DNA of 64,000 nt from Saprospira sp. CCB-QB6 (lineage in GTDB: Bacteria; Bacteroidota; Bacteroidia; Chitinophagales; Saprospiraceae): NCBI RefSeq assembly GCF_028464065.1, contig NZ_CP116808.1, forward strand, positions 3,811,501 to 3,875,500. The letters run 5' to 3'. Positions 752-60,795 of this stretch are shown piece after piece; the first letter of the stretch is position 1, and each line of letters starts with the position of its first letter. Made by a program: the position numbers and the translations under genes. The notes beneath the pieces were generated by a model. The model was given only the letters and a program-made list of their open reading frames with translations. It searched no databases and was not told the DNA's origin.

Positions 752-878
752 GGGGCTGCCCCTCGCTTCGCTCGGGTCGCTATGCTGCGCGGCTCGCTGG
801 TCGCTCGGCCCTGCGCAAAATTCGCTACGCTCATTTTGCTGGGTCTGGCCTGCGGCCACTGCTGCCCATCCCTCAGCC
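752..878 (+). repeat. Type-A hairpin element, copy 1 (subtype A1)
   Basis: First of 22 copies. In its own sense the element reads: T-run, GGGGC, a pair of GCTCG blocks, GGCCCTGCG, a variable stem, TGGGTCTG, a GC hairpin, then CATCCCTCAGCC. Here the variable stem is CAAAAT/ATTTTG, the GC hairpin is GGCCTGCGGCC, and the ends GGCTG and CAGCC are complementary. It fills most of the 594-1016 gap; nothing else is recognisable in that gap. Confidence 0.85.
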
Positions 879-1016
879 AAATGCAATTCCTTTGCTATTA
901 TTTTTAAATAAAACTAAATGGCTAAGGGCAAGAAAAACTAAGGCTTTGTTCCTTTGTCTAGCATTTTTGTTTATTATTAGGTAGTCATTCAATTTTTAGC
1001 CTTAAACCTTAATAAT

Positions 1017-1508
1017 ATGCGCAAGCTATTCCAATTGAAAGAAAAGATTTGGAGTTTTGGTGGAAATTATGTCATCCGAGACGAAAATGAAGAGCCCGTT
1101 TATGCGGTCAAGGGAAAAGTTTTTTCTTGGGGAAAAGATCTCTCCTTTCAAGATTATCATACGGGGGAAGAAATATTTCGCATCAAGCAAATTTTGATGA
1201 GTTTTATGCCTCGCTTCGAAATTTTGAAGGATGGAGAGCCATTGGCTGAAATTCGCAAAGAGTTTCAGTGGTTTGGCCAAAAGTTTACCTTAGATGTGCC
1301 TGGTCCAAATGATTATACTATTGAAGGCTCTTTTTGGCAAAGAGAATTTGAATTTCGCCGAGCTTCGGGCCTCTCTGCTCGAGTATCTAAAGCGTTTTGG
1401 AATTGGACGGATACTTATGGCATTGAAATTTATGAGGGCGATGAGGCCTTTATCTTAGCCACCGCTATTGTTATTGATTTGGTGCTGTTTGAAAAGAAAT
1501 CAAACTAA
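1017..1508 (+). CDS. LURP-one-related (LOR/YxjI-like) protein, first of a tandem pair
   Basis: 163 residues with the look of the LOR/Tubby-like beta-barrel family: short repeated strand motifs such as FQLKEKIWSFGGNYVIRDE, then VFSWGKDLSF, FRIKQILMSFMPRFEI, and a hydrophobic C-terminal helix (ILATAIVIDLVLF) that would fill the barrel. No signal peptide, so it is probably cytoplasmic or membrane-associated. The family binds lipid or scaffolds in other organisms; its bacterial role is not settled. Only six bases separate it from the next gene, a paralogue, so the two are one operon formed by tandem duplication. Confidence 0.75.
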   Translation: MRKLFQLKEKIWSFGGNYVIRDENEEPVYAVKGKVFSWGKDLSFQDYHTGEEIFRIKQILMSFMPRFEILKDGEPLAEIRKEFQWFGQKFTLDVPGPNDYTIEGSFWQREFEFRRASGLSARVSKAFWNWTDTYGIEIYEGDEAFILATAIVIDLVLFEKKSN

Positions 1509-1514
1509 GTAGTC

Positions 1515-2006
1515 ATGCCAAAGCGCTTTCAGCTCAAGGAAAAAGCTTGGAGTCTAGATAGTAGCTATCTAATCCGAGATGAGCTAGACCAAATTACTTA
1601 TTTGGTAGAAGGGAAGTTTTTTTCTTGGGGCAAAGCCCTTTCTTTTCGAGATTATAAAACAGGACAAGAGTTATTTCAAATTAAAAGACGGCTTTTTTGC
1701 CTGTTGCCTCAGTTTGAAATAAAACATAAGGGAGAAGTCATTGCCGAATTTCGTAAGCGGTTTTACCTTTGGGGACATTGTTTTAGTTTAAGGTTTTCAG
1801 GAGGGTCAAATTATCAAGTCGAGGGTGGCTTTTGGTCCAGAAACTTTATTGTTAGTGCAAATGAAAAACAATTAGCCAAATTGTCTAAAAAGTTTTGGGC
1901 CTGGACAGATACTTATGCTGTTGAAATCTATGAAGGAGAGGAACAACTAATTTTGGCTGCTGCTGTCATTATTGATTGTGTTTTATTTAATCATGGTTCA
2001 AATTAG
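1515..2006 (+). CDS. LURP-one-related (LOR/YxjI-like) protein, second of a tandem pair
   Basis: Same length (163 residues) and same motif order as the gene at 1017-1508: FQLKEKAWSLDSSYLIRDE, FFSWGKALSFRDYKTG, WAWTDTYAVEIYEGEE, C-terminal helix LAAAVIIDCVLF. The two proteins are clearly homologous but diverged, so the duplication is not recent. A type-A element and a shared terminator follow the stop. Function unknown beyond the barrel-fold assignment. Confidence 0.75.
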   Translation: MPKRFQLKEKAWSLDSSYLIRDELDQITYLVEGKFFSWGKALSFRDYKTGQELFQIKRRLFCLLPQFEIKHKGEVIAEFRKRFYLWGHCFSLRFSGGSNYQVEGGFWSRNFIVSANEKQLAKLSKKFWAWTDTYAVEIYEGEEQLILAAAVIIDCVLFNHGSN

Positions 2007-2020
2007 AGGAAAAAAGAGCT

Positions 2021-2166
2021 GCCTTGGCCCAGCGCTGCGCAGGGGTGGCCGAAGGCCAGACCCAGTTTTTTTGAGCGTAGCGAAAAAAACGCAGGGCCGA
2101 GCGAACAGCGAGCCCCGCAGCATAGCGGCGGCCAACCGAGGCGAAGCCGAGCTGGCCGCGGGCCCC
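2021..2166 (-). repeat. Type-A hairpin element, copy 2 (subtype A3)
   Basis: Minus orientation, in a convergent gap. In element sense the ends are GGGGCCC and GCGCTGGGCC, giving GGCCC/GGGCC complementarity. The variable stem is a T7/A7 pair, and the GC hairpin is GGCCTTCGGCC. Confidence 0.85.
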
Positions 2167-2184
2167 AAAATAAAAACAGAGATG

Positions 2185-2220
2185 AAAAAAGCCAGTAGAA
2201 AAAAACTACTGGCTTTTGTT
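2185..2220. terminator. Bidirectional terminator between the LOR pair and the peroxiredoxin
   Basis: GCCAGTAG (2191-2198) pairs with CTACTGGC (2206-2213). There is an A-run on the left and T's on the right, so it can serve the converging genes on both sides. Confidence 0.8.
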
Positions 2221-2222
2221 GT

Positions 2223-2840
2223 TTATTCTGTAGCCTTGAGGACGGCCAGTAGAATTTCGGGAGAGAGGCGCACCTTAAAATTGGGATTGATATAAGAAAA
2301 CTGAATTTCGCCTTCTGTATTTAGGACAAAAACGGCGGGGGCTGGCAATTGGTAATGGGTTTCGCCAGAATGTTCTTCTAGTTTGACTCCAAATGCACGG
2401 TAGCGTTTTTGGGCGCTATTATCTAGTTGGAAAGCGATGCCTAGTTTGCGAGCATACTCCATTTTAGAATCGGACAGCAATTGGTAGCGGAATTCGCCTT
2501 CTTCTGCGCTTTCTTTTAGTTTTTCGGGTTTATCGGCAGAAATCGCCAAAACTTGAAAGCCCAAATCATGAATTTCCTTTTCAATTTCTTGTAGACCATT
2601 TAGTTGCAAATTGCAGTAGGGGCACCAATTTCCGCGGTAAAAAACTAAAACGGTTTTTTGTTTTTTGATCAACTTTTTAATGTTCAGGCTTTCTCCGTCT
2701 ACATTTTGGAGGCTGCCCGCAGGAATTGTTTCGCCAATCAAAATAGGACAAATATCTTCGGCGGCATTGGGTACGCTTTCTTTTTGGGCAAAAGAAAGGC
2801 TACTCCAAAGTAAAAGCAGAAAAACAAATAACTTTTTCAT
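2223..2840 (-). CDS. Secreted peroxiredoxin-like (AhpC/TSA-fold) protein
   Basis: 205 residues. A signal peptide ends at SFAQ (about residue 19), so the protein is exported to the periplasm or beyond. The thioredoxin fold follows. The active-site stretch FYRGNWCPYCNLQL holds Cys73 and Cys76. This WCPYC form is typical of the AhpC/TSA subfamily often annotated peroxiredoxin-like, which reduces peroxides or acts as a thiol reductase. The conserved PAPAVFVL near the C-terminus supports the fold. It lies 17 bases downstream of the spermidine-synthase-like gene on the same strand and is probably co-transcribed with it. Confidence 0.8.
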   Translation of the reverse strand: MKKLFVFLLLLWSSLSFAQKESVPNAAEDICPILIGETIPAGSLQNVDGESLNIKKLIKKQKTVLVFYRGNWCPYCNLQLNGLQEIEKEIHDLGFQVLAISADKPEKLKESAEEGEFRYQLLSDSKMEYARKLGIAFQLDNSAQKRYRAFGVKLEEHSGETHYQLPAPAVFVLNTEGEIQFSYINPNFKVRLSPEILLAVLKATE

Positions 2841-2857
2841 AAGAGAGGGTTAGTTTA

Positions 2858-5839: not shown

Positions 5840-8020
5840 TTACTCAAACTTTTTCCCAGAGCGATCAATAACGGCCGCACTAGCTTGCTGATTGGCAAAA
5901 AGAAGTAAATCCTGAATATTCACTCTTTCTGGGCGACTAGCCACAAAGAAAATAGTTTCCGCTACATCTTCTGCTCGCAAAGGCGTGAAATCATCATAAA
6001 TTTTTGCTTTTTCTTCATCACCATCAAAACGAACTAAAGCAAATTCAGTTTCTACATGCCCAGGATGAATGGCGGCTACCCGAACTCCATAGCGATGCAA
6101 ATCTAAACGCATTCCTTTGGTGAGCATATCTAAAGCAGCTTTTGTAGCGCAATAAACATTTCCGTCGGCATAGGCTTCTTTACCTGCAATCGATCCGATA
6201 TTGATAATGAATCCTTTTTTATTTTGGACCATAATCGGACTAATTGCCCGGCTCAAGTAAAGTAATCCTTTTAGATTGGTATCAATCATAGTTTCCCAAT
6301 CCTCAATTTTTCCCTCATGAATGGGGCCTCTACCTTTTGCCAAGCCTGCATTATTGATCAAAATATCAATGTTGCCCCAAGATTCAGGCAATTTTGCCAA
6401 GGCGGCATCAATTTCTTCTTTATTTCGAACATCAAAAGAAAGGGTTTGTACTTCCAACTGCTCAAAATTTTCACGCAATTGCTCCGAAAGTTGTTCTAAA
6501 CGCTCTGCTCGACGGCCAGCCAATACTAAACGATAACCCGCACGAGCAAATTGCCAAGCTGTGGCTCGACCAATACCAGAAGTTGCGCCCGTAATAAAAA
6601 CAACTTCTTCTGCATGAGGCGAAGGCAAAATTTCTTCTTCCGATTCAGGCAACTGTAATTCTTCGGCTAGTGGTTGCTGTTCTTCTGGACGAATTACTTT
6701 ATACAACTGGTCCAATTCTATCGCCTGCAATTCGGGCTTCAACAAACAAGCTTGCAAATAATTTGCTCTGGCCGCCTCAATTTGTCCCTGTTTAGCCTGG
6801 CAATCGGCCAAAGCCAAATAAGCCAACTCATATTGCGGATCAATTTCTAATGCCCGATGCAATAATTCATTCACTCTAAATAATGACGCATATCTTTTGC
6901 GCAAATGCAAAGCATACTCATAATAAAGCGCTGCCGATTCTTCGTTGACAAAAATCGCTTTTTTATAATATTCTTGCGCCAATTGCTGCTCTTCTTCCTC
7001 AAAATGACGATCAAATAAACGCGCCAACCAAATCAAAGCGCGACCATTACTAGGATCCAAAACTAAAATTCGTTCATAAGCCAAACGCGCTACTTCATAA
7101 TCCGCTTCTTCCGTTTCCGTCTCCGCAATGACAAAAAGCGCATCCAAAGAGCGAATTTCAGTCAAATATTGCTGGGCCGCTTCCAAATTTTCATTTTCCA
7201 AAACGACTTTTTCAGCCAGCACTTCTTCTTTTTCCTCTTTTTCCACAACCGTCGGAATTTCTTCCGCTTTTTCTTCCTCTACAGTTTCTAACTGTTTTTC
7301 TTCCTCCATTTCTTCAACAGCATTTTCGATCTGCTTTTCTTCTTCCAAAATTTCTTCCTCGGCCCGAATATCTGCTTCTTTTTCAGTCTCAGTCTCTGCT
7401 ACAGGCGCTTCAATAATTTCCTCTTCAGCCTCTTCCTCTTCAACAAAGACTGGTTTTTCTTCGCTTTTTTGCAAAACCTTAATATCTAAAGCCTGCAAAA
7501 GGCGACTAAACTCACTGGCTTCAAAGTCAGCCCAAGGACTAGGCGAAAGCGCATTGATTTTTCGCAAAAAACTGCCAATATTCGTCGATAAACGCTTGGC
7601 AAAAAGTTTTTGCGCCTCAATTTCTTCGATTTCATGTGGTGCCGCTTCTCGATTGGCTTTGCGCAAACGAATCCACTCCTCATGCCAATAATCTCGATAG
7701 CGCATGAGCTCATGAATCGTTTTTGTTTGCGTGGGCGTTTCCGTAATATTTCCAGCAGCATCTTTTTGCCGACCATTTAAAAGCACAGGCAAAATTCGCT
7801 CAGTATTTAGCATCAATGCCGCCAAAGCCTGCATGGCTTCCGCATCTTTCAAAAAGTTATCGCTTAAAAGCAAAAGCACTTTTTCTTCGCCTTCTTCCAA
7901 ACTACTCGGTTTAGGATTGGCAACTAATTCGACTTGGCTGCCAGCAAAAAAATGCGCTAAACTTTGAAATTCTTCGCTGTTGGCCGCTACATATAATACA
8001 GGGAGTTGATATTGAGGCAT
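5840..8020 (-). CDS. TIR-like / Glu-rich / TPR / short-chain dehydrogenase fusion protein
   Basis: 726 residues. Residues 5-150 resemble a TIR-like domain (LPVLYVAANSEEF, then KVLLLLSDNFLKDAEAMQAL). Residues 195-290 are a Glu-rich low-complexity linker. Residues 300-440 hold TPR-like helices (YERILVLDPSNGRALIWLA; LALADCQAKQGQIEAARANY). Residues 478-726 are a classical SDR of the YdfG type: GATSGIG at 478, NNAG, Ser610, YCATK with Tyr623 and Lys627. All SDR catalytic residues are present, so it should be an active NAD(P)-dependent oxidoreductase. In the TIR motif the usual catalytic Glu position is Ala, so NADase activity is doubtful. The fusion itself is unusual. No neighbour explains its role. 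Confidence 0.75.
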   Translation of the reverse strand: MPQYQLPVLYVAANSEEFQSLAHFFAGSQVELVANPKPSSLEEGEEKVLLLLSDNFLKDAEAMQALAALMLNTERILPVLLNGRQKDAAGNITETPTQTKTIHELMRYRDYWHEEWIRLRKANREAAPHEIEEIEAQKLFAKRLSTNIGSFLRKINALSPSPWADFEASEFSRLLQALDIKVLQKSEEKPVFVEEEEAEEEIIEAPVAETETEKEADIRAEEEILEEEKQIENAVEEMEEEKQLETVEEEKAEEIPTVVEKEEKEEVLAEKVVLENENLEAAQQYLTEIRSLDALFVIAETETEEADYEVARLAYERILVLDPSNGRALIWLARLFDRHFEEEEQQLAQEYYKKAIFVNEESAALYYEYALHLRKRYASLFRVNELLHRALEIDPQYELAYLALADCQAKQGQIEAARANYLQACLLKPELQAIELDQLYKVIRPEEQQPLAEELQLPESEEEILPSPHAEEVVFITGATSGIGRATAWQFARAGYRLVLAGRRAERLEQLSEQLRENFEQLEVQTLSFDVRNKEEIDAALAKLPESWGNIDILINNAGLAKGRGPIHEGKIEDWETMIDTNLKGLLYLSRAISPIMVQNKKGFIINIGSIAGKEAYADGNVYCATKAALDMLTKGMRLDLHRYGVRVAAIHPGHVETEFALVRFDGDEEKAKIYDDFTPLRAEDVAETIFFVASRPERVNIQDLLLFANQQASAAVIDRSGKKFE

Positions 8021-8216: not shown

Positions 8217-8348
8217 GGGGCCTCCGCTGCGGCTTCGCCTTGCGGCGCTACGCTTTGGGGCTCGCTCTTCGCTCGGCCCTGCGTTTTTTTCGCTGCGCTC
8301 AAAAAAACTGGGGCTGGCCTTCGGCCACCCCGCCGCATCGCTAGGCCG
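8217..8348 (+). repeat. Type-A hairpin element, copy 3 (subtype A2)
   Basis: Plus orientation, in the divergent gap between 8020 and 8544. Ends GGGGCCTCCGC and CATCGCTAGGCC (GGCCT/AGGCC). The variable stem is T7/A7 and the GC hairpin is GGCCTTCGGCC. The strong terminator at 8425-8467 follows downstream. Confidence 0.85.
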
Positions 8349-9053: not shown

Positions 9054-9184
9054 GCGGCTGAGCGATGCGCAGCAGTGCGGCCTAGCCGCAGACCGAGCAA
9101 AAAAACTTGTTTTTTTTGCGAAGGGCCGAGCGAATAGCGAGCCGCGGAGCATAGCGACCCGAGCCAAAGGCGAGGGGCAGCCCC
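9054..9184 (-). repeat. Type-A hairpin element, copy 4 (subtype A1)
   Basis: Minus orientation in a convergent gap. In element sense it has ends GGGGCTG and CATCGCTCAGCC (GGCTG/CAGCC), and the variable stem is an A8/T7 pair, the reverse polarity of copies 2 and 3. Confidence 0.8.
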
Positions 9185-12799: not shown

Positions 12800-12922
12800 G
12801 GGGCCTCCGCAGCAAAGCTGCGGCGCTACGTTTCAGGGCTCGCTATTCGCTCGGCCCTTCGCAAAAATGCGCAGCATTTTTGCTCGGTCTGGCCTTCGGC
12901 CACCCTTTCACATCGCTAGGCC
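12800..12922 (+). repeat. Type-A hairpin element, copy 5 (subtype A2), in the katA-oxyR gap
   Basis: Ends GGGGCCTCCGC and CATCGCTAGGCC. The variable stem is CAAAAATGC/GCATTTTTG (an arm pair also seen in copy 6) and the GC hairpin is GGCCTTCGGCC. It occupies much of the shared control region of katA and oxyR. Confidence 0.85.
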
Positions 12923-14029: not shown

Positions 14030-14200
14030 GGGCGGCGAAGCCGCCCTGGCCCGAAGGGCCAATTGGCCCAGCGCTGCGGAGCGGGTGGCCGAAGGCCAGA
14101 CCGAGCAAAAATGCTGCGCATTTTTGCGAAGGGCCGAGCGAATAGCGAGCCCCGCAGCATAGCGGCGGCCGCCCCAATATAAAGGGCGGCCGCGGGCCCC
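14030..14200 (-). repeat. Type-A hairpin element, copy 6 (subtype A3, extended)
   Basis: Starts on the base after the oxyR stop. In element sense the ends are GGGGCCC and GCGCTGGGCC. The variable stem is CAAAAATGC/GCATTTTTG, the GC hairpin is GGCCTTCGGCC, and extra hairpins (GGCGGCGAAGCCGCC, GGCCCGAAGGGCC) lie on its left flank. Confidence 0.85.
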
Positions 14201-17856: not shown

Positions 17857-18016
17857 GGGGCCTCAGCTGCGGCTTCGCCTTGCTGCGGGCTGTTTCGCGG
17901 CTCGCAGGTCTGCTCGGCCCTGCAGTTTTTTCGCTGCGCTCAAAAACTTGGGTCTGCGGCTGCGCCGCCCCGCTGTCCATCCCTAGGCCTGCGGGCGCTT
18001 CGCGCCCTCGTGGACC
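17857..18016 (+). repeat. Type-A hairpin element, copy 7 (A2-like) with 3' hairpin
   Basis: Ends GGGGCCTCAGC and CATCCCTAGGCC (GGCCT/AGGCC). The variable stem is GTTTTT/AAAAAC, the GC hairpin is GCGGCTGCGCCGC, and an extra hairpin GGGCGCTTCGCGCCC follows at 17993-18007. It lies in the divergent gap between dapB and the acyltransferase. Confidence 0.85.
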
Positions 18017-19471: not shown

Positions 19472-19604
19472 GGGGGCCTCAGCTGCGGCTTCGCCTTGCT
19501 GCGCTATGTTTCGGGGCTCGCAGTTCTGCTCGGCCCTGCGTTTTTTTTCGCTGCGCTCAAAAAAACTGGGTCTGGCCTTCGGCCACCCCTGCACAGCGCT
19601 AGGC
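19472..19604 (+). repeat. Type-A hairpin element, copy 8 (subtype A2)
   Basis: Ends GGGGGCCTCAGC and GCGCTAGGCC. The variable stem is T8/A7 and the GC hairpin is GGCCTTCGGCC. Its 3' end lies three bases from the stop codon of the SDR gene at 19607. Confidence 0.85.
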
Positions 19605-19606
19605 CT

Positions 19607-20700: not shown

Positions 20701-20822
20701 GGCCTAGCGATGTGGAGCAGTGGCCGCAGGCCAGACCGAGCCGCTTTCAGCGGCGCAGGGCCGAGCAGAACTGCGAGCCCCGAAACATAGCGCAGCAAGG
20801 CGAAGCCGCAGCTGAGGCCCCC
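20701..20822 (-). repeat. Type-A hairpin element, copy 9 (subtype A2)
   Basis: Minus orientation. In element sense the ends are GGGGGCCTCAGC and CATCGCTAGGCC. Here the variable stem is the GC-rich pair GCCGCT/AGCGGC with loop GAA, quite unlike the T/A arms of copies 2, 3 and 8. The gap 20633-21013 holds this copy and a type-B element and no gene. Confidence 0.85.
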
Positions 20823-20841
20823 AAAAATCAGCGAGCAGCAC

Positions 20842-20897
20842 AGCGACAACAAGGTCATTAGACCGCGGTTCGACGACCAAAGGGAGTAACGCCCCCC
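20842..20897 (+). repeat. Type-B element, copy 1
   Basis: Reads GCGACAACAAGG, a small stem, CCGCGGTTCGACGACC, AAAGGGAGTAACGCCCC. The small stem is GGTC-ATTA-GACC. It directly follows type-A copy 9. Confidence 0.75.
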
Positions 20898-21013
20898 AAA
20901 AAAATAAAAACAGTTTGTGCCAAGATAAAGCTTTTGGGCAAAAAAAAGGCGGCTAGCTTGGGAAGACAGGGGAATAATGCGACCTTTGGGCCCTTAACCA
21001 ACATCATTTGGAG

Positions 21014-23098: not shown

Positions 23099-23566
23099 AT
23101 GAAAAATCTACTGATGTTTATAGGATTCGGATTGATTGCGTTGAACTGTAATGCACAAGACCAAAAAAGAGAGCGCCCAGCAAAAGGCGATATGTTTGAG
23201 CAGATGGATGCCAATCAAGATGGCCAGATTTCGGAAGCGGAAGCCAAAGGTCCACTAAAAGAAAATTTTGCTACAATCGATAGCAACAATGATGGCTTTA
23301 TTAGCCAAGAAGAGCTGAAGAATGCACCAAAACCAGAACGCAAAAAAGGTGGAAAAGGACAAAAAGGAGAAGCTGGCAAAGGCAATATGTTTGAGAAAAT
23401 GGATGCCGATCAAGATGGCCAAATTTCAGAAGCAGAAGCCAAAGGTCCACTAAAAGAAAACTTTGCTACAATTGATAGCAATAATGATGGTTTTATCAGC
23501 GAAGAAGAAATGAAAAATGCGCCTAAACCTGAAAGAGGGCAAGGTCGCCAACGTAAAGCAAACTAA
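23099..23566 (+). CDS. Exported EF-hand calcium-binding protein with internal duplication
   Basis: 155 residues. The signal peptide ends near NCNA-QD (residue 19-20). Four 12-residue EF-hand loops: DANQDGQISEAE, DSNNDGFISQEE, DADQDGQISEAE, DSNNDGFISEEE. The first pair and its flanks are repeated almost word for word in the second pair (about residues 31-79 and 94-142), so the gene grew by an internal duplication. Basic linkers (RKKGGKGQKGEAGKG) separate the halves. Likely a periplasmic or outer calcium binder; no partner is evident. Confidence 0.85.
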   Translation: MKNLLMFIGFGLIALNCNAQDQKRERPAKGDMFEQMDANQDGQISEAEAKGPLKENFATIDSNNDGFISQEELKNAPKPERKKGGKGQKGEAGKGNMFEKMDADQDGQISEAEAKGPLKENFATIDSNNDGFISEEEMKNAPKPERGQGRQRKAN

Positions 23567-25949: not shown

Positions 25950-26152
25950 GGGCGTTATGGCTTTTAGCCGTCGAACTACTGCCTCTTCGGGCTTGCTTGT
26001 CGCAGCTCGCTCTTACTTACTTTGCTGCCAGCAAAGAGCGAGCTGCGATTTAGTTTGCAGTTCGACGACCGAAGGGAGTAAACGTAACGCAGCAAGGCGA
26101 AGACGAAGCGACAATAAGAATTTTTCGACGACTGAAAGGAGTAAGGTCCCCA
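25950..26152. repeat. Type-B cluster with a long inverted repeat
   Basis: Begins on the base after the receptor stop (TAG then GGGCG) and ends in CCCC near 26152. It contains an inverted type-B copy (about 25950-26003) and two direct, diverged copies (about 26050-26093 and 26110-26150) with TTCGACGACCGAAGGGAGTA. Between them TCGCAGCTCGCTCTT (26000-26014) pairs with AAGAGCGAGCTGCGA (26034-26048), a perfect 15-bp stem with TTTGCT/AGCAAA near its loop. Confidence 0.75.
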
Positions 26153-26155
26153 AAA

Positions 26156-27610
26156 TTATTTTCGCAATTCGAGTAGTTCTCGAAAAGAGAGTTGGCCGAT
26201 AAGAAAGGCGCTTAAAAGAGAGGCAGCGCCGGCCAATAAAATTTTGAACCAAAAAATAAAAGGCAAAAATTGGCTGCTATAAAAAATACCGAAGCTCAAT
26301 AGGCTGCCTAAAATAAAACGTAGGAATAAAGCCAGTGAAAAATAATTGCGCAAATTGGGAAAGTAGCGAAAAGTTAAAAAGATTTCGGTTACTGCGATAA
26401 AAAACTGAGTGATTAAGGTGGCTACAGCTGCGCCCAAGGCTCCATAAGCGGGAATCCAAAAAAAGTTGAGGCCAAAATTGAGTAAAACGCCAAAGGCGAA
26501 AAAAATATTCATTTCTTTTAGGCGGGCGGCGGCAGTAAGGAAGGTGCCAAAAATGTAAATTATTCCAGCGGCATTGGCCGAAAACAATAAAATTTGCAGT
26601 AAAAAAGGCGTTTGGCTATTACTGCTTTCATAAAGTGCGGGGGCGAGTTCATCGGCATAGAAAAATAGGGCGATGCTAAGCGAAAGAGATAAAAAACTCA
26701 TCCAGCGAAAAGCAGTTGCCATCAATTGGCCCAAATCTTTGAGTTCTAGTGGCCGCAACAAGCGAGAAAACATAGGCAATAATAAGCCCGCAAATAAATA
26801 AGCGATCATATTAAAGGCATCGAGCAAACGATAGGCAAAAGCATATTGATCGGCTTCCAATTTCCCTTTTTCTATGGGCAGCAAACGCTCAATCATAACG
26901 GCATCCATACGGCTGTATAAAGTCATTAGTAAAACGACAAAGGCGTAGGGCAGGGCTTGTTTGAGCAAAATATAAATTCGCTTGGGCGAAATTTTCCAGC
27001 GCAAAGGGCCTTCAATTTTTTTGGCCAAGAAAAAAGCACAGACCAAAAAAGTAAGGGCATAACCTAATGATTGCGCTTGCACAAACTGCAAAATATTGAA
27101 TGGGCCAAAAGGCTCGAGGGCCAGTAAAGTGTACAGTAAAATAATGAGCAATAATTTATCGAGAGCCGAAAGCAAACTATCGAGTCGATAAAAAGCCATG
27201 GCGGATAAATTGGAGCGCAAAAATAAAATTCCACTCAATAAAAATTGATTGAGTAAAATATAGGGCAAAATTTGCCAAGCCTCTTCGGTATAGCCCATCA
27301 AAAAGGCGCTGCCAAAAGCTAACGCAAAATAACTTAGCCCTAAAATGGCTTTGAGACTCAACAAAGAAGGCAAATAAGCTGAGCGCAAATTCTCTTGCTG
27401 CGAAATAAAACGGCTGTTGAATTGCAAAAGTCCCAAATCAGCCAAAAGTTGGAAAATAAAAGCAAAATTGAACAGACTAAAATAAAGTCCGTACTCGCCA
27501 TCATCCAAGCGGTTTTGAACCTGAAGGTCAATTCCAAAAATATAAAATGGCTTTATCAGCAGGTTGATGCCCACCAATAAAGCCAAATTTAATAGAAATG
27601 TTTTTTTCAT
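26156..27610 (-). CDS. Polysaccharide/lipid flippase of the MATE/MOP superfamily
   Basis: 484 residues from the ATG at 27608-27610, about a dozen membrane helices. Family signs: ASKRNV precedes the start but is outside; GEYGLYFSLFNFAFIFQLLADLGLLQF near the N-terminus (conserved GLYFSLFNF, DLGLLQF), MDAVMIERLLPIEKG after helix 6, AYGALGAAVATLITQF near the C-terminus. Oligosaccharide repeat-unit flippases of this type feed cell-surface polysaccharide synthesis. No glycosyltransferase cluster is nearby. It ends beside the type-B cluster. Confidence 0.85.
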   Translation of the reverse strand: MKKTFLLNLALLVGINLLIKPFYIFGIDLQVQNRLDDGEYGLYFSLFNFAFIFQLLADLGLLQFNSRFISQQENLRSAYLPSLLSLKAILGLSYFALAFGSAFLMGYTEEAWQILPYILLNQFLLSGILFLRSNLSAMAFYRLDSLLSALDKLLLIILLYTLLALEPFGPFNILQFVQAQSLGYALTFLVCAFFLAKKIEGPLRWKISPKRIYILLKQALPYAFVVLLMTLYSRMDAVMIERLLPIEKGKLEADQYAFAYRLLDAFNMIAYLFAGLLLPMFSRLLRPLELKDLGQLMATAFRWMSFLSLSLSIALFFYADELAPALYESSNSQTPFLLQILLFSANAAGIIYIFGTFLTAAARLKEMNIFFAFGVLLNFGLNFFWIPAYGALGAAVATLITQFFIAVTEIFLTFRYFPNLRNYFSLALFLRFILGSLLSFGIFYSSQFLPFIFWFKILLAGAASLLSAFLIGQLSFRELLELRK

Positions 27611-29953: not shown

Positions 29954-30124
29954 GGGGCTGCCCCTCGCTTTGCTCGGGTCGGGCTGTGTCGTGGCTCGCT
30001 ATTCGCTCGGCCCTGCAGTTTTTTTTCGCTTCGCTTCAAAAAAAACTTGGGTCTGGCCTTCGGCCACCACTTTCCATCCCTCAGCCGCGTCGCTTCGCGC
30101 CTTTGCGGCGGCTGCGCCGCCTGC
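29954..30124 (+). repeat. Type-A hairpin element, copy 11 (subtype A1) with 3' hairpins
   Basis: (Number 10 was dropped: it is the type-B cluster.) Ends GGGGCTG and CATCCCTCAGCC. The variable stem is GTTTTTTTT/AAAAAAAAC, the GC hairpin is GGCCTTCGGCC, and it is followed by GCGGCGGCTGCGCCGCC-type hairpins to 30124. Lies in the divergent gap between M61 and the SPOR gene. Confidence 0.85.
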
Positions 30125-31995: not shown

Positions 31996-32143
31996 GGGCC
32001 GAAGGCCCGCAGGCTGAGGGATGGAAAGTGGTGCGGCGTAGCCGCAGACCCAGCAAAATGAGCGCAGCGAAATTTTGCGCAGGGCCGAGCGAATAGCGAG
32101 CCACGACAGAGCCCGACCCGAGCCGATAGGCGAGGGGCAGCCC
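31996..32143 (-). repeat. Type-A hairpin element, copy 12 (subtype A1)
   Basis: Minus orientation between two plus-strand genes. In element sense ends GGGCTG and CATCCCTCAGCC; the variable stem is AAAAT/ATTTT; the GC hairpin is GCGGCTACGCCGC; and a terminal GGGCCTTCGGCCC hairpin is present. Confidence 0.85.
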
Positions 32144-35619: not shown

Positions 35620-35775
35620 GGGGCTGCCCCTCCCTTTGGTCGGGTCGGGCTGTGTCGTGGCTCGCAGGTCTGCTCGGCCCTGCGGCGCAAAGCGCCTTGG
35701 TCTGCGGCTTCGCCGCCCCACTTTCCATCCCTCAGCCGCGTCGCTTCGCTCCTTTGCGGCGGCTACGCCGCCTGT
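35620..35775 (+). repeat. Type-A hairpin element, copy 13 (subtype A1) with 3' hairpins
   Basis: Ends GGGGCTG and CATCCCTCAGCC. The variable stem is GGCGC-AAA-GCGCC, the GC hairpin is GCGGCTTCGCCGC, and a GCGGCGGCTACGCCGCC-type tail follows. It fills most of the gap before the thiolase. Confidence 0.87.
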
Positions 35776-37862: not shown

Positions 37863-38013
37863 CTGGCCCGTAGGGCCAGTGCGGGCCAAAGGCCCGCCAT
37901 GGCCTAGCGATGTGCAGCAGTGGCCCGAAGGGCCAGACCAAGGCGCTTTGCGCCGCAGGGCCGAGCGAGTAGCGAGCTGCGCAACGTAGCGCCTGCCGCA
38001 GGCAGGAGGCCCC
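37863..38013 (-). repeat. Type-A hairpin element, copy 14 (subtype A2) with extra hairpins
   Basis: In element sense ends GGGGCCTCC and CATCGCTAGGCC. The variable stem is GGCGC-AAA-GCGCC, the same arms as copy 13 although the ends belong to another subtype. Extra hairpins GGCCCTACGGGCC and GCGGGCCTTTGGCCCGC-like arms lie at its outer side. Confidence 0.85.
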
Positions 38014-38097: not shown

Positions 38098-41000
38098 TTA
38101 TCGTTTAATCACCAAAGGCTGAGTTGTTTGTGTACCAGCTTCTGTATCGATGATACGGAGGGTATACATAGCAGGCGCTAGTTTGGCTGTAGGGATGGTG
38201 TAGCTTTGCTGTCCAACTTGGTTAATTGCCTGACGATAGACGATTTGACCGTGGATGCTTACAATTTGGAGTTCCAGATTGCGGCTTTCAGTTAGGTCAA
38301 AGCTAAGCGTCACTTGTTGGTCGGCAGGGTTGGGGTAGAGCTGGATTTGCTCTAGACCAGCCACATTAGTCACTGCGACAACAATTGTTACTGAAGCGCT
38401 GTCTTGGCAACCATTGGCATCAGTTACGGTAACTGTTTGTAGGCCAGTAGCGACAACTGTATCGCTAGTAGAACCATTGGTCCAAAGGTAGCTGTAAGGA
38501 CTAGTACCGCCAGTAACATCGGCAGTTGCTGTGCCGTCGCCATTGTCAGTGGTGGTAGTAACTAGGGCTGCGGGTTCAGAGATAGTTACTGTAGCAACAT
38601 CTGAACAACCTAGGCTATCCGTAACGGTTACCGAGTAGCTTCCTGCGGCAAGATTGCTGGCTACAGCTGTTGTTTGGTTGGCTGCGGCGCTATCCCAAGC
38701 GTAAGTATAGGGAGCAATGCCTAGAGTAGCAGCAGCAGTTGCTTCGGCTGTGGCATCTCCATTACAGGCAATATTAGTTGTCGTCAAAGCGCCAGCGGTA
38801 ATATTTGAGGCTGTAATGCTAAAGCTAGCCGTATCGTTATTTGCATCTATGTCGCCAGTAAGGCTAATTGTTGCAGTGAGTGTGGTATTTCCTGAAGGCG
38901 CAGGGAAAGGACCGACAGTTACGGTAGCAGAATCGCCTGCGGGAATATTTGTTGCTGATCCAGAAGCGATAGGAATAGGAATACCACTAGCTGTTACGGT
39001 ATAGGTTACTGTAGCGGCAGTATCTGTGCCTAGGTTGTAAATGACAACTTGTCCAGAAACATTGCTACCTGCATTACAGTAAGTAGGCATGAGGCCAGCA
39101 ATAGCAACAGAAGCATCGACAGTAGAGGCACAGTTGGTCCGGCTAATATCTAGCTGGAAAGCCCCTGTATTGCTTGAAAAGCCTTCAACAAGGATGAAAA
39201 TAGTGTCGCCCTCGTTATAAGTAGTATCGTTTGTGATATCGAGGCCTAGCATAGAGGTGCGATAGACTGTTCCTCCATCATCGTCACTGTCTAGTAGGGT
39301 ACTAGCATCTGCAGCATAAATACGGAGGTAGGTATCGAAAGAAGAGTTACTCAAATCGATGTAAAGAGAATCTGTACAAGGTTCAATTACATACATAAAC
39401 CAAGCATCTCCAGCCGCATTTCCAATTGTATTGTTAAAGCAATCAGTATTCCCTGTAAAAGAGGCGGGGGCAGCACCTACAACAGTTGCTCCAGATGCAG
39501 AATCATTGGGGTAGGTAATTGCGCTACTGCTAATATCAAGCACGTAATTACCGCTATTGCTAGCGGCACCTTCTACCAAAATATAGATGGTATCTCCCTC
39601 ATTATAATTAGCATTGTTTAAAACGCTAAAGGTTAGGCTAGAGGTATTATTGACTCCACTATTATCGTCGCTATCTAGCAAGCTGCTATCAGCTGCATAA
39701 ATACTTAGGTAAGTGTCAAAATTAGAGCTGTCTAATCCGATAAACACAGAATCTGTACAAGCTTCAATGATATATTGGAACCAAACGTCATTAGAGGCAT
39801 TCCCCATTGTGTTGGTATAGCAAGCTGTATTACCTGCATTGTTGTAGGGAAGACCATTGATAAGAAGAGGAGCACTCATTGAGTCCCCTACAGCAGGACT
39901 GCCAAAGGTAGCTGTAAAGTCTAGCACATAATTTCCTACGCTTGTTGTGCTATATCCTTCGACTAAGATATAAATCGTATCGCCCTCATTGTAGTCTGTG
40001 TTTCCGCTTAGGGCTAGCTCTAAGCGAGAAGTAGGAGTACCCGATACAATATCATCATTATAATCTAAAACGGTACTGCCATCTGCTGCAAGTACAGAAA
40101 GGTACGTATCAAAATCAGAGCTATCTAAACCAATGTACAAAGAGTCTGTACAAGCCGGAATCACATAGCTAAACCAAACATCAGGTGATGTGCGGCGAGC
40201 AGTTTCTGTATAACAAACGCCAGTATTCCCTGTCATGCTAAATGTAGGGCTGTTGATTGGAATTGCTAAGTGGATAGAATCCCCGGCAGGAACAGCAGTA
40301 CAGCTAGTCGCAAAAGCAACAGGGCCAACCCAGTTAGAAGTGCTAGCATTATTGCCTGCAGGCGTGTAGCTGCCAGCAGGGTAGACAGAAGCACAACTAC
40401 CATTATCCGAACAACCATCATTGGCGTTAGGGCCAGAAAAGGTCCAATCTGCAGCATTGAATGTTGCAGAAGGAGCAGCTGTACCCATACGATAAGCCCA
40501 ACCATCTAGGTATTCCCAAGCTTGGCCAGTACCATCTACGTTTACATCACCAAAAAGATCAATGACTGTCGTATTTTCATAAAGCTCAATAGCATCATCT
40601 CCATTAACGTTTACAGTACCATCAATGATGTCTGCATCAAAGCCCATATAATCACGAAAACCAGCAGAATCACTCGCTACATAAATACGAGTACCTGCAG
40701 TGGCCGGACCAGAAGGGAAATTCATTTCTGGACCTGCAGTTGTTCCACTACCATTGTTGGCAGAACTTAAACCATAAATAGAGAGATCAGCTACGTCATT
40801 GACAACAACCACCTCAACAAATTTAGGCGTGCCACCAGTTAGGGGACCGTCCATAATTCCAGCAATGGCTAGATTGGTAGTAGATCCTGTGCCAGCACTA
40901 CAATAATCGCGAACATAAGCCTCATAAGCTGTAGCAGGCGTTAAACCAGTAGCCGTATAAGGATTGGCCGCAGTAACAGTGCCAGAATTAGGCGTGCCAC

Positions 41001-41800: not shown

Positions 41801-41951
41801 GGGGGCTGCCCCTCCCTTTGGTCGGGTCGGGCTGTGTCAGGGCTCGCAGGTCTGCTCGGCCCTGCGCTTTTTTCGCTTTGCTCAAAAAAGCTGGGTCTGG
41901 CCCTGCGGGCCACCCTTATCCATCCCTCAGCCTGCGGGCCTTCGGCCCTGC
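41801..41951 (+). repeat. Type-A hairpin element, copy 15 (subtype A1)
   Basis: Ends GGGGCTG and CATCCCTCAGCC. The variable stem is GCTTTTTT/AAAAAAGC, the GC hairpin is GGCCCTGCGGGCC, and a tail hairpin GGGCCTTCGGCCC follows. Confidence 0.87.
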
Positions 41952-44371: not shown

Positions 44372-44488
44372 GGCCTAGCGATGTGCAGCAGTGGCCGAAG
44401 GCCAGACCAAGGCGCTTTGCGCCGCAGGGCCGAGCGAAGAGCGAGCTGCGAAACGTAGCGCCGACGAGCGAAGCGAGGCGGAGGCCCC
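44372..44488 (-). repeat. Type-A hairpin element, copy 16 (subtype A2)
   Basis: In element sense ends GGGGCCTCC and CATCGCTAGGCC. The variable stem is GGCGC-AAA-GCGCC. Its core is nearly the same as copy 14. Together with two type-B copies it fills the 44280-44691 gap. Confidence 0.87.
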
Positions 44489-44503: not shown

Positions 44504-44627
44504 CTGCGACAACAAGCCCTTTAGGCCGCAGTTCGACGACCAAAGGGAGTAACCGCCGCAAGGCGAAGCCGCAGCGACAACAAGGACTTTAGTCCGCAGT
44601 TCGATGACTGAAAGGAGTAACGCCCCT
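44504..44627 (+). repeat. Two type-B elements in tandem
   Basis: Copies at about 44504-44552 and 44571-44627. Both read GCGACAACAAG, small stem, CCGCAGTTCGA-GAC, AAAGG(A)GTAAC. Small stems: GCCC-TTTA-GGCC (one mismatch) and GGAC-TTTA-GTCC. The second ends AACGCCCC. Confidence 0.78.
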
Positions 44628-44635
44628 AAAAATAA

Positions 44636-44671
44636 AAAACCAGAAAGCCTCGAAAGACCTTCTGGTTTGTA
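44636..44671 (-). terminator. Terminator of groESL
   Basis: AAACCAGAA pairs with TTCTGGTTT (44661-44669), with a T-run on the minus strand. It lies between groEL and the type-A/B block. Confidence 0.8.
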
Positions 44672-47885: not shown

Positions 47886-47958
47886 GGGCTGCCCCGCCCT
47901 TCAGCGGCAAAGCCGCTTCGGTCTGGCCTGCGGCCACGGCTGTGTACCGCTCAGCGGT
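47886..47958 (+). repeat. Truncated type-A element, copy 17
   Basis: Only about 73 bases. It keeps GGGCTGCCCC at the left, the stem GCGGC-AAA-GCCGC, GGTCTGGCCTGCGGCC, and ends CGCTCAGCGG. The double GCTCG block is missing. Confidence 0.7.
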
Positions 47959-48552
47959 CTTTTTTCTTCGGCATTTAGTACTGTTTGGAGTCTTGTCTGA
48001 ACCTACTACAAGTCTAGTCAACTTGTAGAACTATCTATGAAAGGATTAGCAATAGGCTTTAGTTAGACTATTGTACTCTTGCAGTGCTGTTTTCTACGCT
48101 TTAGTTGGAGCTCTTTACTCCAATTGGGCGGTCTTAAATCTCTAAGTTTTCACTAAGCTTACTGCCTGAAGAGAGTAAATAAAGTGGACCGTTTTAATAC
48201 TCAACTTCAGTTGCAGATAAAAGAACTGGAGTTAGAGATAAAAAAATAGGAGTTGAGGATAAAAGAACTGGAGCCAAAGGTAAAAGTATATCAACTAAGG
48301 ATTAAACTGCTTCCTGGCTGGAGTTTAGTACTTTATCTAAGCTGTTCAGAAGAGCATTCAAGGAGTTATAGAAGGATATTTATCTGTTTTAGACCTACTG
48401 AATACAGTTAGAGAGGGCTATTCTTGGACCAATAAACTTAGCCAGTAAGTTTTGGATATCTTAAATAGCCGTGTGTGTAGTTGAAAACAAAGCTTAGAAG
48501 GGCTATTTTGGGGTTGATGGACTTCTATTTTCGCTTAAATAACCACTAAACA
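47959..48552. other. 594-base gene-free region with decayed coding remnant
   Basis: AT-rich and with many stops. It contains a hairpin CTACAAGT/ACTTGTAG (48006-48028) and a 21-bp tandem array at 48216-48299, described separately. No intact gene. The general appearance is decayed coding DNA. Confidence 0.5.
48216..48299 (+). repeat. Four imperfect 21-bp tandem repeats, likely coiled-coil pseudogene remnant
   Basis: Units start GATAAAAGAACTGGAG, GATAAAAAAATAGGAG, GATAAAAGAACTGGAG, GGTAAAAGTATATCAA. 21 bp equals one heptad. One frame reads QLQLQIKELELEIKK, a TAG stop, then ELRIKELEPKVKVYQLRIK, a leucine heptad pattern broken by the stop. Confidence 0.55.
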
Positions 48553-49083
48553 ATGAATGAACAATTAAAAGATCGAATAAAAAGAATATCTATTCGTGGA
48601 CGCTTTGCTATAGCCTTACGTATTCTAGAAATAGAACTACCAAAATATCCTGTATTTGAGCAAAGTCCTACTTCAAAAACCCTAATCAGTAGACTGAAAG
48701 AATTTACCAATAGTACGACCGTAGATGATTGGATGGAGGAAACAAATCGAATAACTCCTGCTACAGTTCTAGAAGATGGGGGACGCTATGATGCAGAATA
48801 TTTCGCTGACTTTCTGAAGGAAGAAGATTTTAATGAATTTCACAAGCAGTACAAAGCATTGCCAGAGCGTTTTTTGTCTGCTATAGATTATACGACCTGG
48901 CTTGGTCAAGCCCATATTTATGTGGGAGTTCCAAGTTACTCAGAGGAGACTTATGAATATTTATTAGACGTAATCGAATTAACTACCGTAGATAACTTGC
49001 CTGAAATTATAGCCCGTTATGAGTTTTCTTCTTTTGAGCAACGTCATGGTTGGGGAAATCGCTTTAATTATGATGAGGTTTAG
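48553..49083 (+). CDS. Hypothetical cytoplasmic protein
   Basis: 176 residues, no signal peptide or membrane segment. The mostly helical sequence includes KRISIRGRFAIALRILEIEL and PERFLSAIDYTTWLGQAHIY and ends with FEQRHGWGNRFNYDEV. I do not recognise the family. Size and composition resemble some contact-dependent immunity proteins, but nothing nearby supports that. Its TAG stop shares a G with the start of a type-A element. Confidence 0.6.
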   Translation: MNEQLKDRIKRISIRGRFAIALRILEIELPKYPVFEQSPTSKTLISRLKEFTNSTTVDDWMEETNRITPATVLEDGGRYDAEYFADFLKEEDFNEFHKQYKALPERFLSAIDYTTWLGQAHIYVGVPSYSEETYEYLLDVIELTTVDNLPEIIARYEFSSFEQRHGWGNRFNYDEV

Positions 49084-49202
49084 GGGCCTCCGCTGCGGCT
49101 TCGCCTTGCGGCGCTACGTTTCGGGGCTCGCTGCTCGCTCGGCCCTGCGCGGGCTGCGCCCGCTTGGTCTGGCCTAGGGCCACCCCTGCACATCGCTAGG
49201 CC
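49083..49202 (+). repeat. Type-A hairpin element, copy 18a (subtype A2), left half of a head-to-head pair
   Basis: Ends GGGGCCTCCGC and CATCGCTAGGCC. The variable stem is GCGGGC-TGC-GCCCGC. It is followed by hairpins GGCCTTCGGCC and GGCGGCTTTGCCGCC. Confidence 0.87.
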
Positions 49203-49396: not shown

Positions 49397-49529
49397 CAGG
49401 CGGCTTCGCCGCCGCAGGCCTAGGGACTTGTAAGGGGGGCCGCAGGCCCGACCGAGCTGCTTTAGCAGCGAAGGGCCGAGCAGACCTGCGAGCCCTGAAA
49501 AGGCCCGGCGGCCGCAGGCCGCAGGCCCC
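49397..49529 (-). repeat. Type-A hairpin element, copy 18b, right half of a head-to-head pair
   Basis: In element sense starts GGGGCCTGCGG and ends CCCTAGGCCTGC (GGCCT/AGGCC). Variable stem GCTGCT-AA-AGCAGC. Bases 49397-49497 are the exact reverse complement of 54043-54143 in copy 19. Confidence 0.87.
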
Positions 49530-52057: not shown

Positions 52058-52059
52058 AT

Positions 52060-54006: not shown

Positions 54007-54143
54007 GGGGCTGCCCTGCCCAAAGGGCAGGTCGGGCTGTGCCAGGGCTCGCAGGTCTGCTCGGCCCTTCGCTGCTAAAGCAGCTCGGTCGGGCCTGCGG
54101 CCCCCCTTACAAGTCCCTAGGCCTGCGGCGGCGAAGCCGCCTG
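54007..54143 (+). repeat. Type-A hairpin element, copy 19 (hybrid ends)
   Basis: 5' end GGGGCTG as in A1 but 3' end CCCTAGGCC as in A2, so the ends do not pair well: the one exception among the copies. Variable stem GCTGCT-AA-AGCAGC. Bases 54043-54143 are the exact reverse complement of 49397-49497. Confidence 0.85.
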
Positions 54144-54860: not shown

Positions 54861-54989
54861 TGGCCCAGCGCTGCGCAGCAGTGGCCGCAGGCCAGACCCA
54901 GCGGGCGAAGCCCGCGCAGGGCCGAGCAGACCTGCGAGCTGCGAAGCATAGCGGCGGCCGCCCCAAATTGGAGGGCGGCCGCGGGCCCC
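54861..54989 (-). repeat. Type-A hairpin element, copy 20 (subtype A3)
   Basis: In element sense ends GGGGCCC and GCGCTGGGCC. Variable stem GCGGGC-TTC-GCCCGC, GC hairpin GGCCTGCGGCC. The outer part GGCGGCCGCCCC/GGGCGGCCGC is shared with copy 6. Confidence 0.87.
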
Positions 54990-57404: not shown

Positions 57405-57427
57405 TTTCTATTAGTAGGTAGAAATGA

Positions 57428-57463
57428 AAAGAGCCACTAGCTTATCGCTAGTGGCTCTTTTTT
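57428..57463. terminator. Bidirectional terminator between ftcD and the DPP-IV gene
   Basis: GAGCCACTAGC (57431-57441) pairs with GCTAGTGGCTC (57447-57457), A's before and T's after. Confidence 0.92.
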
Positions 57464-57476
57464 GTACCCTCAATTT

Positions 57477-59633: not shown

Positions 59634-59880
59634 TTTTTCTAAATTGATGAATGAAAATACAGTTTGATAATCAATTGTTTAGGGGCTGATTGTTGCTGTA
59701 TTTAAATAAATAGATATGAAAATAGAATCTTTTTCCCGAACTTAGGGTTGTTTACTAGTACGCCCCAGACGATATTCCCCGAACTTATCTAAAAAAGGAA
59801 GTTCTTCCCAAAAGGACTATTCTTTTCTACAAAAAAGAAAAAAAGTTCGACGATATCTAGCCTTTAGTAGCGCTTATTTT

Positions 59881-60094
59881 GGGGCTGCCCCTTCCGTTGA
59901 GTTAAAACCCAGCGCAAAGCGGTATCGCTTTGCGAAGCGATACAAAATGAGGGTTGAAACCCTCATGAATGATCGGGCGGGTCGGGCTGTGTCGTGGCTC
60001 GCAGGTCTGCTCGGCCCTGCGCAGCAGCAAGCTGCTGCTGGGTCTGCGGCTGCGCCGCACCACTTTCCATCCCTCAGCCGGCGGCTTCGCCGCC
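59881..60094 (+). repeat. Type-A hairpin element, copy 21 (subtype A1) with an internal insert
   Basis: Ends GGGGCTG and CATCCCTCAGCC, variable stem GCAGCAGC-AA-GCTGCTGC, GC hairpin GCGGCTGCGCCGC. Bases about 59893-59973 replace the short CTTTGG segment of other A1 copies. The insert holds GTATCGCTT/AAGCGATAC (59922-59943) and ATGAGGGTT/AACCCTCAT (59947-59966), the latter also found at 49309-49328. The rest of gap 59634-60146 has no gene. Confidence 0.87.
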
Positions 60095-60146
60095 TCTAGA
60101 CGCACAGATAATCAAAACAACTTTTTCAACAAAAAAAAACAATATC

Positions 60147-60554
60147 ATGGCAGAACTAAGATCTATCCACCTGCACCAAAATGGCAAAAAAGTATGGCGA
60201 TTGCAGGCCCTCAGCACCGAAATGTATGATGTAGATAAAGGCGGTATGGTCATTACTGACTTAGTCGATTTCAATCAAGCTGATTTTACTGGCCGATTTG
60301 GTGGTTATGTCCCCGTACAAATTACATTCTATGACAACCGCAACTTTGACGTTCTCTATCACACCGCTGATGGCCCCATTGAAGGCACTGGCCGTTGGAT
60401 CAAAAATGCGGATCATATTGTCCTACAACAAAACACAGGCGATGAAATCGAACTCCCTGCAGCTACGCTAGATGCCGAGGACCAATTCCATTGTCAATAT
60501 GCTTATCTAGGTGGTAATATGGATATCCAACAGCTCAAGTATAGAGCCATTTAA
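60147..60554 (+). CDS. Small hypothetical beta-rich protein
   Basis: 135 residues from the ATG at 60147. The longer frame upstream runs through a type-A element and is not credible. No signal peptide. Strand-rich: AELRSIHLHQNGKKVWRLQA, FGGYVPVQITFYDNRNFDVL, HIVLQQNTGDEIELPAATL. I do not recognise the family. Confidence 0.6.
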   Translation: MAELRSIHLHQNGKKVWRLQALSTEMYDVDKGGMVITDLVDFNQADFTGRFGGYVPVQITFYDNRNFDVLYHTADGPIEGTGRWIKNADHIVLQQNTGDEIELPAATLDAEDQFHCQYAYLGGNMDIQQLKYRAI

Positions 60555-60575
60555 TCCCTAATTATAATGGATGAA

Positions 60576-60620
60576 AAAAGGCCCAAGCGCAATATGTGTT
60601 TGGGCCTTCGCTTTTTTTAA
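60576..60620 (+). terminator. Terminator after the gene at 60147
   Basis: GGCCCAA (60581-60587) pairs with TTGGGCC (60601-60607). A T-run follows a few bases later. Confidence 0.65.
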
Positions 60621-60664
60621 AAAAAGAGGCCGAAGAAAATGGCCAAAAGAAAAAAGACAGTTGA

Positions 60665-60795
60665 GCGGCTGAGGGATGGCAGGGGGTGGCCGCAGGCCAG
60701 ACCAAGCTTTTGAGCAAAGCGAAAAAGCGCAGGGCCGAGCAGAATTGCGAGCCCCCGCACAGCCCGACCCGAGCCCTTGGGCGAGGGGCAGCCCC
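60665..60795 (-). repeat. Type-A hairpin element, copy 22 (subtype A1)
   Basis: In element sense ends GGGGCTG and CATCCCTCAGCC. Variable stem GCTTTTT/AAAAGC-like (one unpaired base), GC hairpin GGCCTGCGGCC. In a convergent gap. Confidence 0.85.

Follow-up and report, generated by a model that had tools for sequence, protein, structure and literature searches.

The window, the whole stretch of DNA analysed here, is 64,000 bases long and spans bases 3,811,501-3,875,500 of the 4.24-Mb, two-contig genome of Saprospira sp. CCB-QB6. It carries copies of an interspersed element of about 120 bases that begins with TTT-GGGGC and ends with GGCC. The copies in the window are intergenic and lie in both orientations. 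A covariance model, R1, made from 30 genome copies (two of them from the window), gives 22 matches here, where 21 run across the whole model and one is truncated (47888-47936, 23.7 bits). This agrees with the earlier note on this DNA, which had counted at least 22 intergenic copies in both orientations. The RNAalifold consensus behind R1 is poor (21 pairs); R1 is thus used for detection only, and the helices described below rest on a separate parse.

Copies in the window and their architecture

The first copy, at 752-878 on the + strand (ends GGCTG/CAGCC), has its inward mate at 2026-2166 on the - strand (GGCCC/GGGCC). The copy at 8217-8347 (+; GGCCT/AGGCC) faces 9056-9184 (-; GGCTG/CAGCC). 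The copy that serves as the helix reference, 12800-12922 (+), lies between a catalase-like and a LysR/OxyR-like gene, named from their translations, and its inward mate is 14065-14200 (-; GGCCC/GGGCC, read from the sequence). A + copy at 17857-17989 (GGCCT/AGGCC, read from the sequence) is followed by the pair 19472-19605 (+; GGCCT/AGGCC) and 20701-20822 (-). Further inward pairs are formed by 29954-30086 (+) with 32012-32143 (-), 35620-35737 (+) with 37901-38013 (-), and 41801-41932 (+) with 44372-44488 (-). The truncated copy at 47888-47936 (+) covers model positions 45-99. The mates at 49083-49202 (+) and 49417-49529 (-) are separated by a spacer of 214 bases. A hybrid copy with the non-matching ends GGGGCTG and AGGCC, at 54007-54123 (+), faces 54862-54989 (-; GGCCC/GGGCC, the 5' end read from the sequence). 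The last pair is 59951-60079 (+), where another repeat stands in place of the 5' arm, and 60667-60795 (-).

The 5' and 3' ends of the same copy match each other, as the earlier note had proposed. By eye, they are Watson-Crick partners in 19 of the 20 two-ended window copies, and the sole mismatch is the hybrid copy, which had already been singled out as the exception. Three end sets had been described: GGGGCTG with CAGCC, GGGGCCT with AGGCC, and GGGGCCC with GGGCC. These sets are present and the rule holds, with two corrections. At 59951-60079, another repeat (GGGTTGAAACCC...) has taken the place of the 5' arm; this copy therefore lacks a GGGGCTG end, is not countable, and is excluded from the rule. 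The list of sets was also incomplete, with a fourth, GGGGCTT/AAGCC, found in the wider sample.

The sample combines the window with 40 stretches of 20 kb at even spacing, 864 kb in 41 stretches, and element copies are present in 41 of 41. The core GCTCGGCCC[TA] has 280 sites, and the upstream half of helix P4 is present at 272; the other ~8 of 280 are probably coding matches. R1 gives 65 matches in ten stretches, compared with 64 by the core count, and at least 150 over the genome. Scaled from the 864-kb sample, the genome total is estimated at ~1,330-1,370 copies. A replication-strand bias is ruled out by the core sites, with 142 on the + strand and 138 on the - strand and a difference of at most 3 within any stretch. 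A strict parse, biased towards intact copies, retained 215 copies with a median length of 120 bases (5-95%, 112-136), and these alone cover 26,343 of the 864,000 bases.

On the forward strand, the element is made up of TTT-GGGGCNN (P1), the P2 hairpin, a P3 strand, P4, P5, P6, the second P3 strand, and NNGGCC (P1). In the reference copy, all on the + strand, the P1 5' strand GGCCT (12802-12806) pairs with the P1 3' strand AGGCC (12918-12922). P2 (12807-12823) is the hairpin CCGCAGC-AAA-GCTGCGG; it varies between copies, the stem sequence being free and the structure retained. The P3 5' strand has 14 bases (12824-12837), and its last three together with 12838 (AGGG) pair with CCCT at 12903-12906 in the P3 3' strand (12903-12917). 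P4 (12838-12856) reads GCTCGC..GCTCGGCC. Its internal loop, TC/TC here and hence GA/GA on the opposite strand, is present in other genera too. P5 (12857-12885) is a variable hairpin arm. P6 (12890-12902) is the hairpin TGGCC-TTC-GGCCA, with a GAA triloop on the reverse strand.

These features recur among the parsed copies. The P1 partners are 100-124 bases apart and the inner P3 partners 54-69 (5-95%). On the reverse strand, the P6 loop is GNA in 165 of 215 copies, and P4 reads CGAG..GAG in 215 of 215, which is mostly forced by the parse. At least three T precede GGG in 181 of 215. The T run is about equally frequent whether the 5' neighbour gene points towards the element (0.83) or away from it (0.86), and it is thus taken as part of the element. 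The base after the final GGCC is almost never C. It is C in 1 of 215 copies of the genome itself and 0 of 122 in its relatives, and elsewhere in 0 of 30 (G018), 0 of 18 (G113), 1 of 9 (G014), and 0 of 69 (G052). A C at this site would extend P1, so the end of P1 seems to be kept open.

Other repeats are found in and beside element copies. The 5'-arm substitute is a recurrent module with a GCAAAGCG.TATCGCTTTGC hairpin and a ATGAGGGTT..AACCCTCAT-like hairpin, at window ~59900-59990 and in L010, L015, L019, L043, and L045. Some copies in L009, L012, and L042 have an insert of ~40 bases (CTGTTACTTGCTTCGCTGCG...GGTCGGGTC) within the P4 loop. A second repeat of ~68 bases (CAGCGACAAC...GGAGTAACG) lies at window 20829-20908, at the GGGG end of the element 20701-20822. 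About 66 bases are missing there in the alignments of two Saprospira grandis strains (G002 and G005), and the relatives show an 11-base overlap suggestive of a target duplication. More copies of this repeat lie at window 44504-44639 and 26049-26158, two in tandem, and it interrupts element copies elsewhere too.

Covariation, orthologous loci, and other genera

The window and sample hold 323 sites of the CTCGGCCC core. Both ends were located in 249, and many of the 74 sites without them are coding matches. End dinucleotides are complementary in 222 of the 249, while 10,000 shuffles gave a mean of 92.4 and a maximum of 118, so the pairing of ends claimed in the earlier note clearly exceeds that of shuffled ends. 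The complementary sets are CT/AG (112), TG/CA (82), CC/GG (20), TT/AA (7), and CA/TG (1). Because the search patterns fix GGC and GCC, the free test covers just two of the five end pairs. The inner part of P3, with four pairs, is completely paired in 182 of 213 copies, with a shuffle maximum of 74. Among 37 columns, six of the eight pairs with the highest corrected mutual information fall in P3 and two in P1. The Watson-Crick share is 87-94% for six of these eight; the other two, both in P3, have 55% and 8%.

The relatives compared are three genomes of S. grandis (G001, G002, and G005: DSM 2844, str. Lewin, and type strain WH). There are 60 copy-by-relative comparisons, with window copies set against up to three strains, so not all are independent loci. 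The element was parsed in the relative in 35, only the core was recovered in 16, and the element was not found in 9. Element or core is thus conserved in 51 of the 60, that is, at most orthologous loci. P1 is unchanged in 34 of the 35 parsed comparisons, and no copy is identical throughout. The arms change as blocks, differing for P2 in 29, P5 in 30, and P6 in 31. The inner P3 helix changed in 17 of the 35 and is paired in both species in 13 of these and not in 4. Inward mates can change in concert, e.g., the L039 mates 14282 and 16294, which have the same new interior in G005.

The element is also found beyond Saprospira. R1 matches at E<=1e-5 occur in at least 14 of 120 Saprospiraceae genomes and 13 of 112 genera, own included; the figure of 14 is a lower bound, since the family scan had stricter filters and only 30 candidates were scored for each genome. 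The matches listed by a pattern scan over genomes of GTDB include Saprospiraceae metagenome-assembled genomes (MAGs), Phaeodactylibacter luteus, a Chitinophagales MAG, and S. grandis. Contig C2, of 53 kb, carries copies, as do two S. grandis plasmids. Among viral contigs, one exact pattern gave 0 matches, and among phages a single 135-base query gave none.

By eye, the same architecture is built from other stem sequences in other genera. In the Saprospiraceae MAG CSSed162cmB_533 (G018), P1 is GCATCA/TGATGC, and P4 has AC/GT or CC/GG where Saprospira has GC/GC. G014 has further inner P3 sets such as ATGG/CCAT, ATAG/CTAT, and GTAG/CTAC. The scan for inner P3 in these genera relied on an approximate 3' anchor, and its unpaired counts for G113, G018, and the remaining genomes, mostly misses of that anchor, are disregarded.

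The closed, branched fold proposed in the earlier note is the best-supported part of this work. Its ends and the inner P3 helix covary, orthologs change on both sides of a helix, and the architecture recurs elsewhere; the covariation is real, strong, and found in several genera. Whole arms are replaced together, so the independent compensatory events are fewer than the copies, and orthologous loci and other genera supply many such events. The inner P3 helix, the alternating inward pairs, the genome-wide scale, and the block-wise arm replacement go beyond what the earlier note had described.

Inward-facing pairs

Neighbouring copies alternate in orientation in 203 of 239 cases (110 inward, 93 outward, 36 same; p=1e-29), the pattern that a row of non-overlapping inward pairs gives. 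Inward neighbours have a median distance of 1,246 bases, compared with 3,507 for outward neighbours. Neighbours less than 1 kb apart make up 49 of 110 inward cases and 1 of 93 outward cases, and inward mates can be up to ~4 kb apart. A called gene (>=100 aa) is absent from 37 of 110 inward intervals and present in the other 73; in 93 of 93 outward intervals there is at least one. Alternation also occurs in the MAG-63 genome (G052), in 19 of 25 neighbours (p=0.007); most stretches in the other genera were picked around matches.

The arrangement is not a by-product of gene orientation, as the four gene-orientation contexts are near even (70, 63, 49, and 42 of 224 sites; 40 more lie inside open reading frame calls, and the rest have no neighbour gene within their stretch). 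The inward segments do not look like foreign cargo. GC content and GC at third codon positions show no difference between 116 inward and 252 outward genes, and only gene length differs. Length differences of at least 200 bases relative to the S. grandis strains (n=27) comprise 10 in inward intervals (39.5 kb), 8 in outward intervals (73.0 kb), and 9 elsewhere. Of the inward ones, two belong to the long non-collinear part of the window and several represent a single locus counted in as many as three strains, so a difference between inward and outward intervals is not established. Pairs as cassettes gained or lost whole were rejected; the L039 case is a deletion that joins the two outer ends. 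The alignments, which cover eight stretches and part of the window, show no inversion between mates. With regard to the target-site duplications and empty sites of a MITE or composite transposon, the outer flanks are, by eye, inverted T/A runs, not direct repeats, with no clean empty site in the loci read.

Mates resemble each other according to their distance. Their similarity exceeds that of random pairs at distances of at least 600 bases (mean 0.52 vs 0.42; n=43, p=1e-4) and falls below it at distances of less than 600 bases (0.36 vs 0.42; n=26, p=0.02).

Folding molecule, rival explanations, and known families

Wobble pairs are rare in the stems. P1, inner P3, P6, and simple P2 stems together contain 30 G.T and 24 A.C in 3,541 cells (0.85% G.T), where the parse fixes three of the five P1 pairs and P6 and P2 were screened for pairing, with G.T and A.C treated alike. 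The inner P3 helix, free of parse constraint, has 16 G.T and 12 A.C in 860. A looser count of all P2 hairpins gives 59 G.T and 9 A.C, largely from one common hairpin type, and P5 has 14 G.T and 24 A.C. As a control, 22 tRNAs from the stretches of these strains have G.T in 37 of 459 pairs (8.1%); ARAGORN brackets standard pairs only, so this control has no A.C count. With DNA parameters, the reverse strand has the lower energy in 190 of 215 copies. GNA triloops and tandem GA pairs can form stable structures in DNA; a literature search brought no support on this point. That wobble pairs are so rare and that gene orientation makes no difference speaks for DNA rather than RNA as the folding molecule, without proving it.

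The preferred reading is a tentative one, held with slightly less than even confidence. It is an interspersed family of ~120-base DNA elements (TTT-GGGGC...GGCC) with a closed, branched single-strand fold, arranged in inward inverted pairs, and resembling REPINs (inverted doublets of repetitive extragenic palindromic, or REP, sequences) at a larger size and with kilobase spacing. The folding molecule would be DNA, and the folding strand would be the complement of GGGGC...GGCC. The pairs may once have been spread by a structure-specific enzyme acting on the folded strand. By now, the copies would be mostly fixed and kept alike by gene conversion, chiefly with the inverted mate. Covariation would then follow because the surviving conversion tracts keep both P1 or both P3 strands together. 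The step from fold to function, like the choice of DNA over RNA, is what we infer.

If true, a folded DNA element arranged in facing pairs would take up ~3-4% of the Saprospira chromosome. It would be a natural system, with many copies and in multiple genera, for asking what maintains inverted repeat pairs, whether selection acts in vivo on single-strand DNA folds, and how conversion preserves a fold while replacing its sequence. The alternation is an unexplained, easily scored pattern that every model must meet.

Several observations weigh against the preferred reading. Stems of the relatives have 6 G.T and 0 A.C in 2,025 cells (0.3%), an RNA-like direction on the forward strand, though tiny. 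RNA parameters favour the reverse strand too, in 146 of 215 copies, and energy z-scores are modest (25 copies; means of -1.63 on the reverse and -0.77 on the forward strand). The purine-rich conserved internal loops would suit RNA as well. Some P1 sets have a fixed C.T mismatch, i.e., GGCCA/TGTCC in G052 and GGCCT/AGTCC in G014. Alternation is weak in G113 by script (11 of 16, p=0.11; 13 of 16 by model matches) and moderate in G018 (19 of 28, p=0.04; 19 of 25 by model matches). No mover is identified, and the Y1 transposase has 0 matches in the element-bearing G018 (97% complete). No clean empty target site is seen at orthologous loci, and in 8 of the 9 comparisons without the element only one flank mapped. 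At L039 6602-7909, G005 retains nothing but the two outer ends, a pair and its 1.3-kb content (6540-7893) corresponding there to joined outer ends, and at L027 2938-3057 only an outer arm is left in the relative. Both loci hold element remnants in the relative and thus look like deletions.

A larger system built on the same fold is rather doubtful. Shared by many Saprospiraceae, it would be a DNA-folding system of several hundred inward pairs per chromosome, with each copy a closed, branched single-strand fold and a dedicated protein recognising the outer helices. Mates would exchange arms by a structure-guided reaction, and the pairs would organise or recombine the segment between them.

A structured RNA is an improbable alternative. 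The copies would be transcribed, as part of an untranslated region or as a small RNA, and the multi-branched reverse-strand RNA would have purine-rich internal loops bound by a protein. This would fit the unpaired core and GA/GA internal loop that are conserved, by eye, in other genera, the covarying P3 column pairs that are mostly not Watson-Crick, and the lower RNA energy on the reverse strand. However, wobble pairs occur at roughly a tenth of their rate in tRNA stems and, in the genome itself, about as often as A.C, the copies have no strand preference relative to genes, and Rfam has no match.

Chromosome-organising sites are equally unlikely. A host protein would bind the folded or duplex element and bridge inverted mates, setting short loops. 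Copies in every sampled stretch with alternating orientation, the recovery of element or core in most ortholog comparisons, and the recurrence of pairing in other genera are consistent with such sites. Speaking against them are the elements on small plasmids, the 99 of 112 sampled family genera in which the element was not detected (30 candidates scored per genome), the lack of a known binding protein, and the pair deleted with its content at L039.

It is quite improbable that the elements are relics without function whose perfect stems are maintained at replication forks by template switching and conversion. The stems are nearly all Watson-Crick, with G.T about as frequent as A.C in the genome itself, and the arms are swapped in blocks. 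The low similarity of mates less than 600 bases apart is expected if long perfect palindromes are lost. Less easily explained as relics are P1 and inner P3 partners that lie 100-124 and 54-69 bases apart with hairpins between, an unpaired core that recurs in other genera, and the T run before GGG. The base after P1 also argues against this, being C in 1 of 337 Saprospira copies and 1 of 126 copies of four other genera.

Among known families, Rfam 15 gives 0 matches in the window, and six loci gave three matches far below the gathering score. No description of the element family was found in the open-access literature listings searched. The earlier note had known of no named family with this layout, and its novelty holds relative to these two sources. 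Enterobacterial BIMEs (bacterial interspersed mosaic elements) are mosaic intergenic elements of alternating inverted palindromic units. Compared by description, not sequence, BIMEs alternate within one short cluster, whereas the Saprospira elements alternate over kilobases. Integron attC sites are recombination sites folded from one DNA strand, with structure conserved more than sequence. They share one orientation per array, while the Saprospira elements alternate.

REPINs are inverted REP doublets associated with the RAYT transposase (PMC3116915). Like REPINs as described there, the Saprospira elements have high copy number, intergenic location, palindromic arms, inverted pairs, a less conserved spacer, and predicted single-stranded DNA folding (PMC3116915). 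They differ in having a ~120-base unit of at least six helices, covarying closing helices, and mates up to ~4 kb apart, with no RAYT link found and without the GTAG/CGTC tag (PMC3116915). The GTAG/CGTC REP families are described as occurring in dimers that prefer unlike partners, with DNA inserted between the partners (PMC3733652). Their units are 20-40 bp hairpins with a tetranucleotide tag, whereas the Saprospira elements are multi-branched and untagged (PMC3733652).

The inverted-doublet arrangement of REPs and REPINs is seen in the alternating copies with their closer inward pairs. The ends read TTT-GGGGCNN and NNGGCC and have no GTAG or CGTC tag, and the median length of 120 bases is not that of a short hairpin unit of 20-40 bp. 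The genome has three Y1_Tnp genes, and elements do not frame them, lying within 1.5 kb on one side only at two loci and absent at the third. G018 bears elements with 0 Y1_Tnp, so membership in the REP/RAYT group is not supported, and the R1-negative genomes G006, G007, and G008 have 4, 7, and 4. An ordinary REP/REPIN family mobilised by a resident RAYT (Y1 transposase) is thus very improbable, even though the copies are intergenic, palindromic, inverted doublets in a genome with Y1_Tnp genes.

Two further observations concern the window itself. Between ~23000 and 60850, it has no alignment to the sampled S. grandis stretches, apart from a 0.6-kb piece near 48454, and both sides of this region align. 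Tandem copies of a 21-base repeat, together with two long direct repeats, lie at window 48209-48292, 23183-23533, and 39307-39836.

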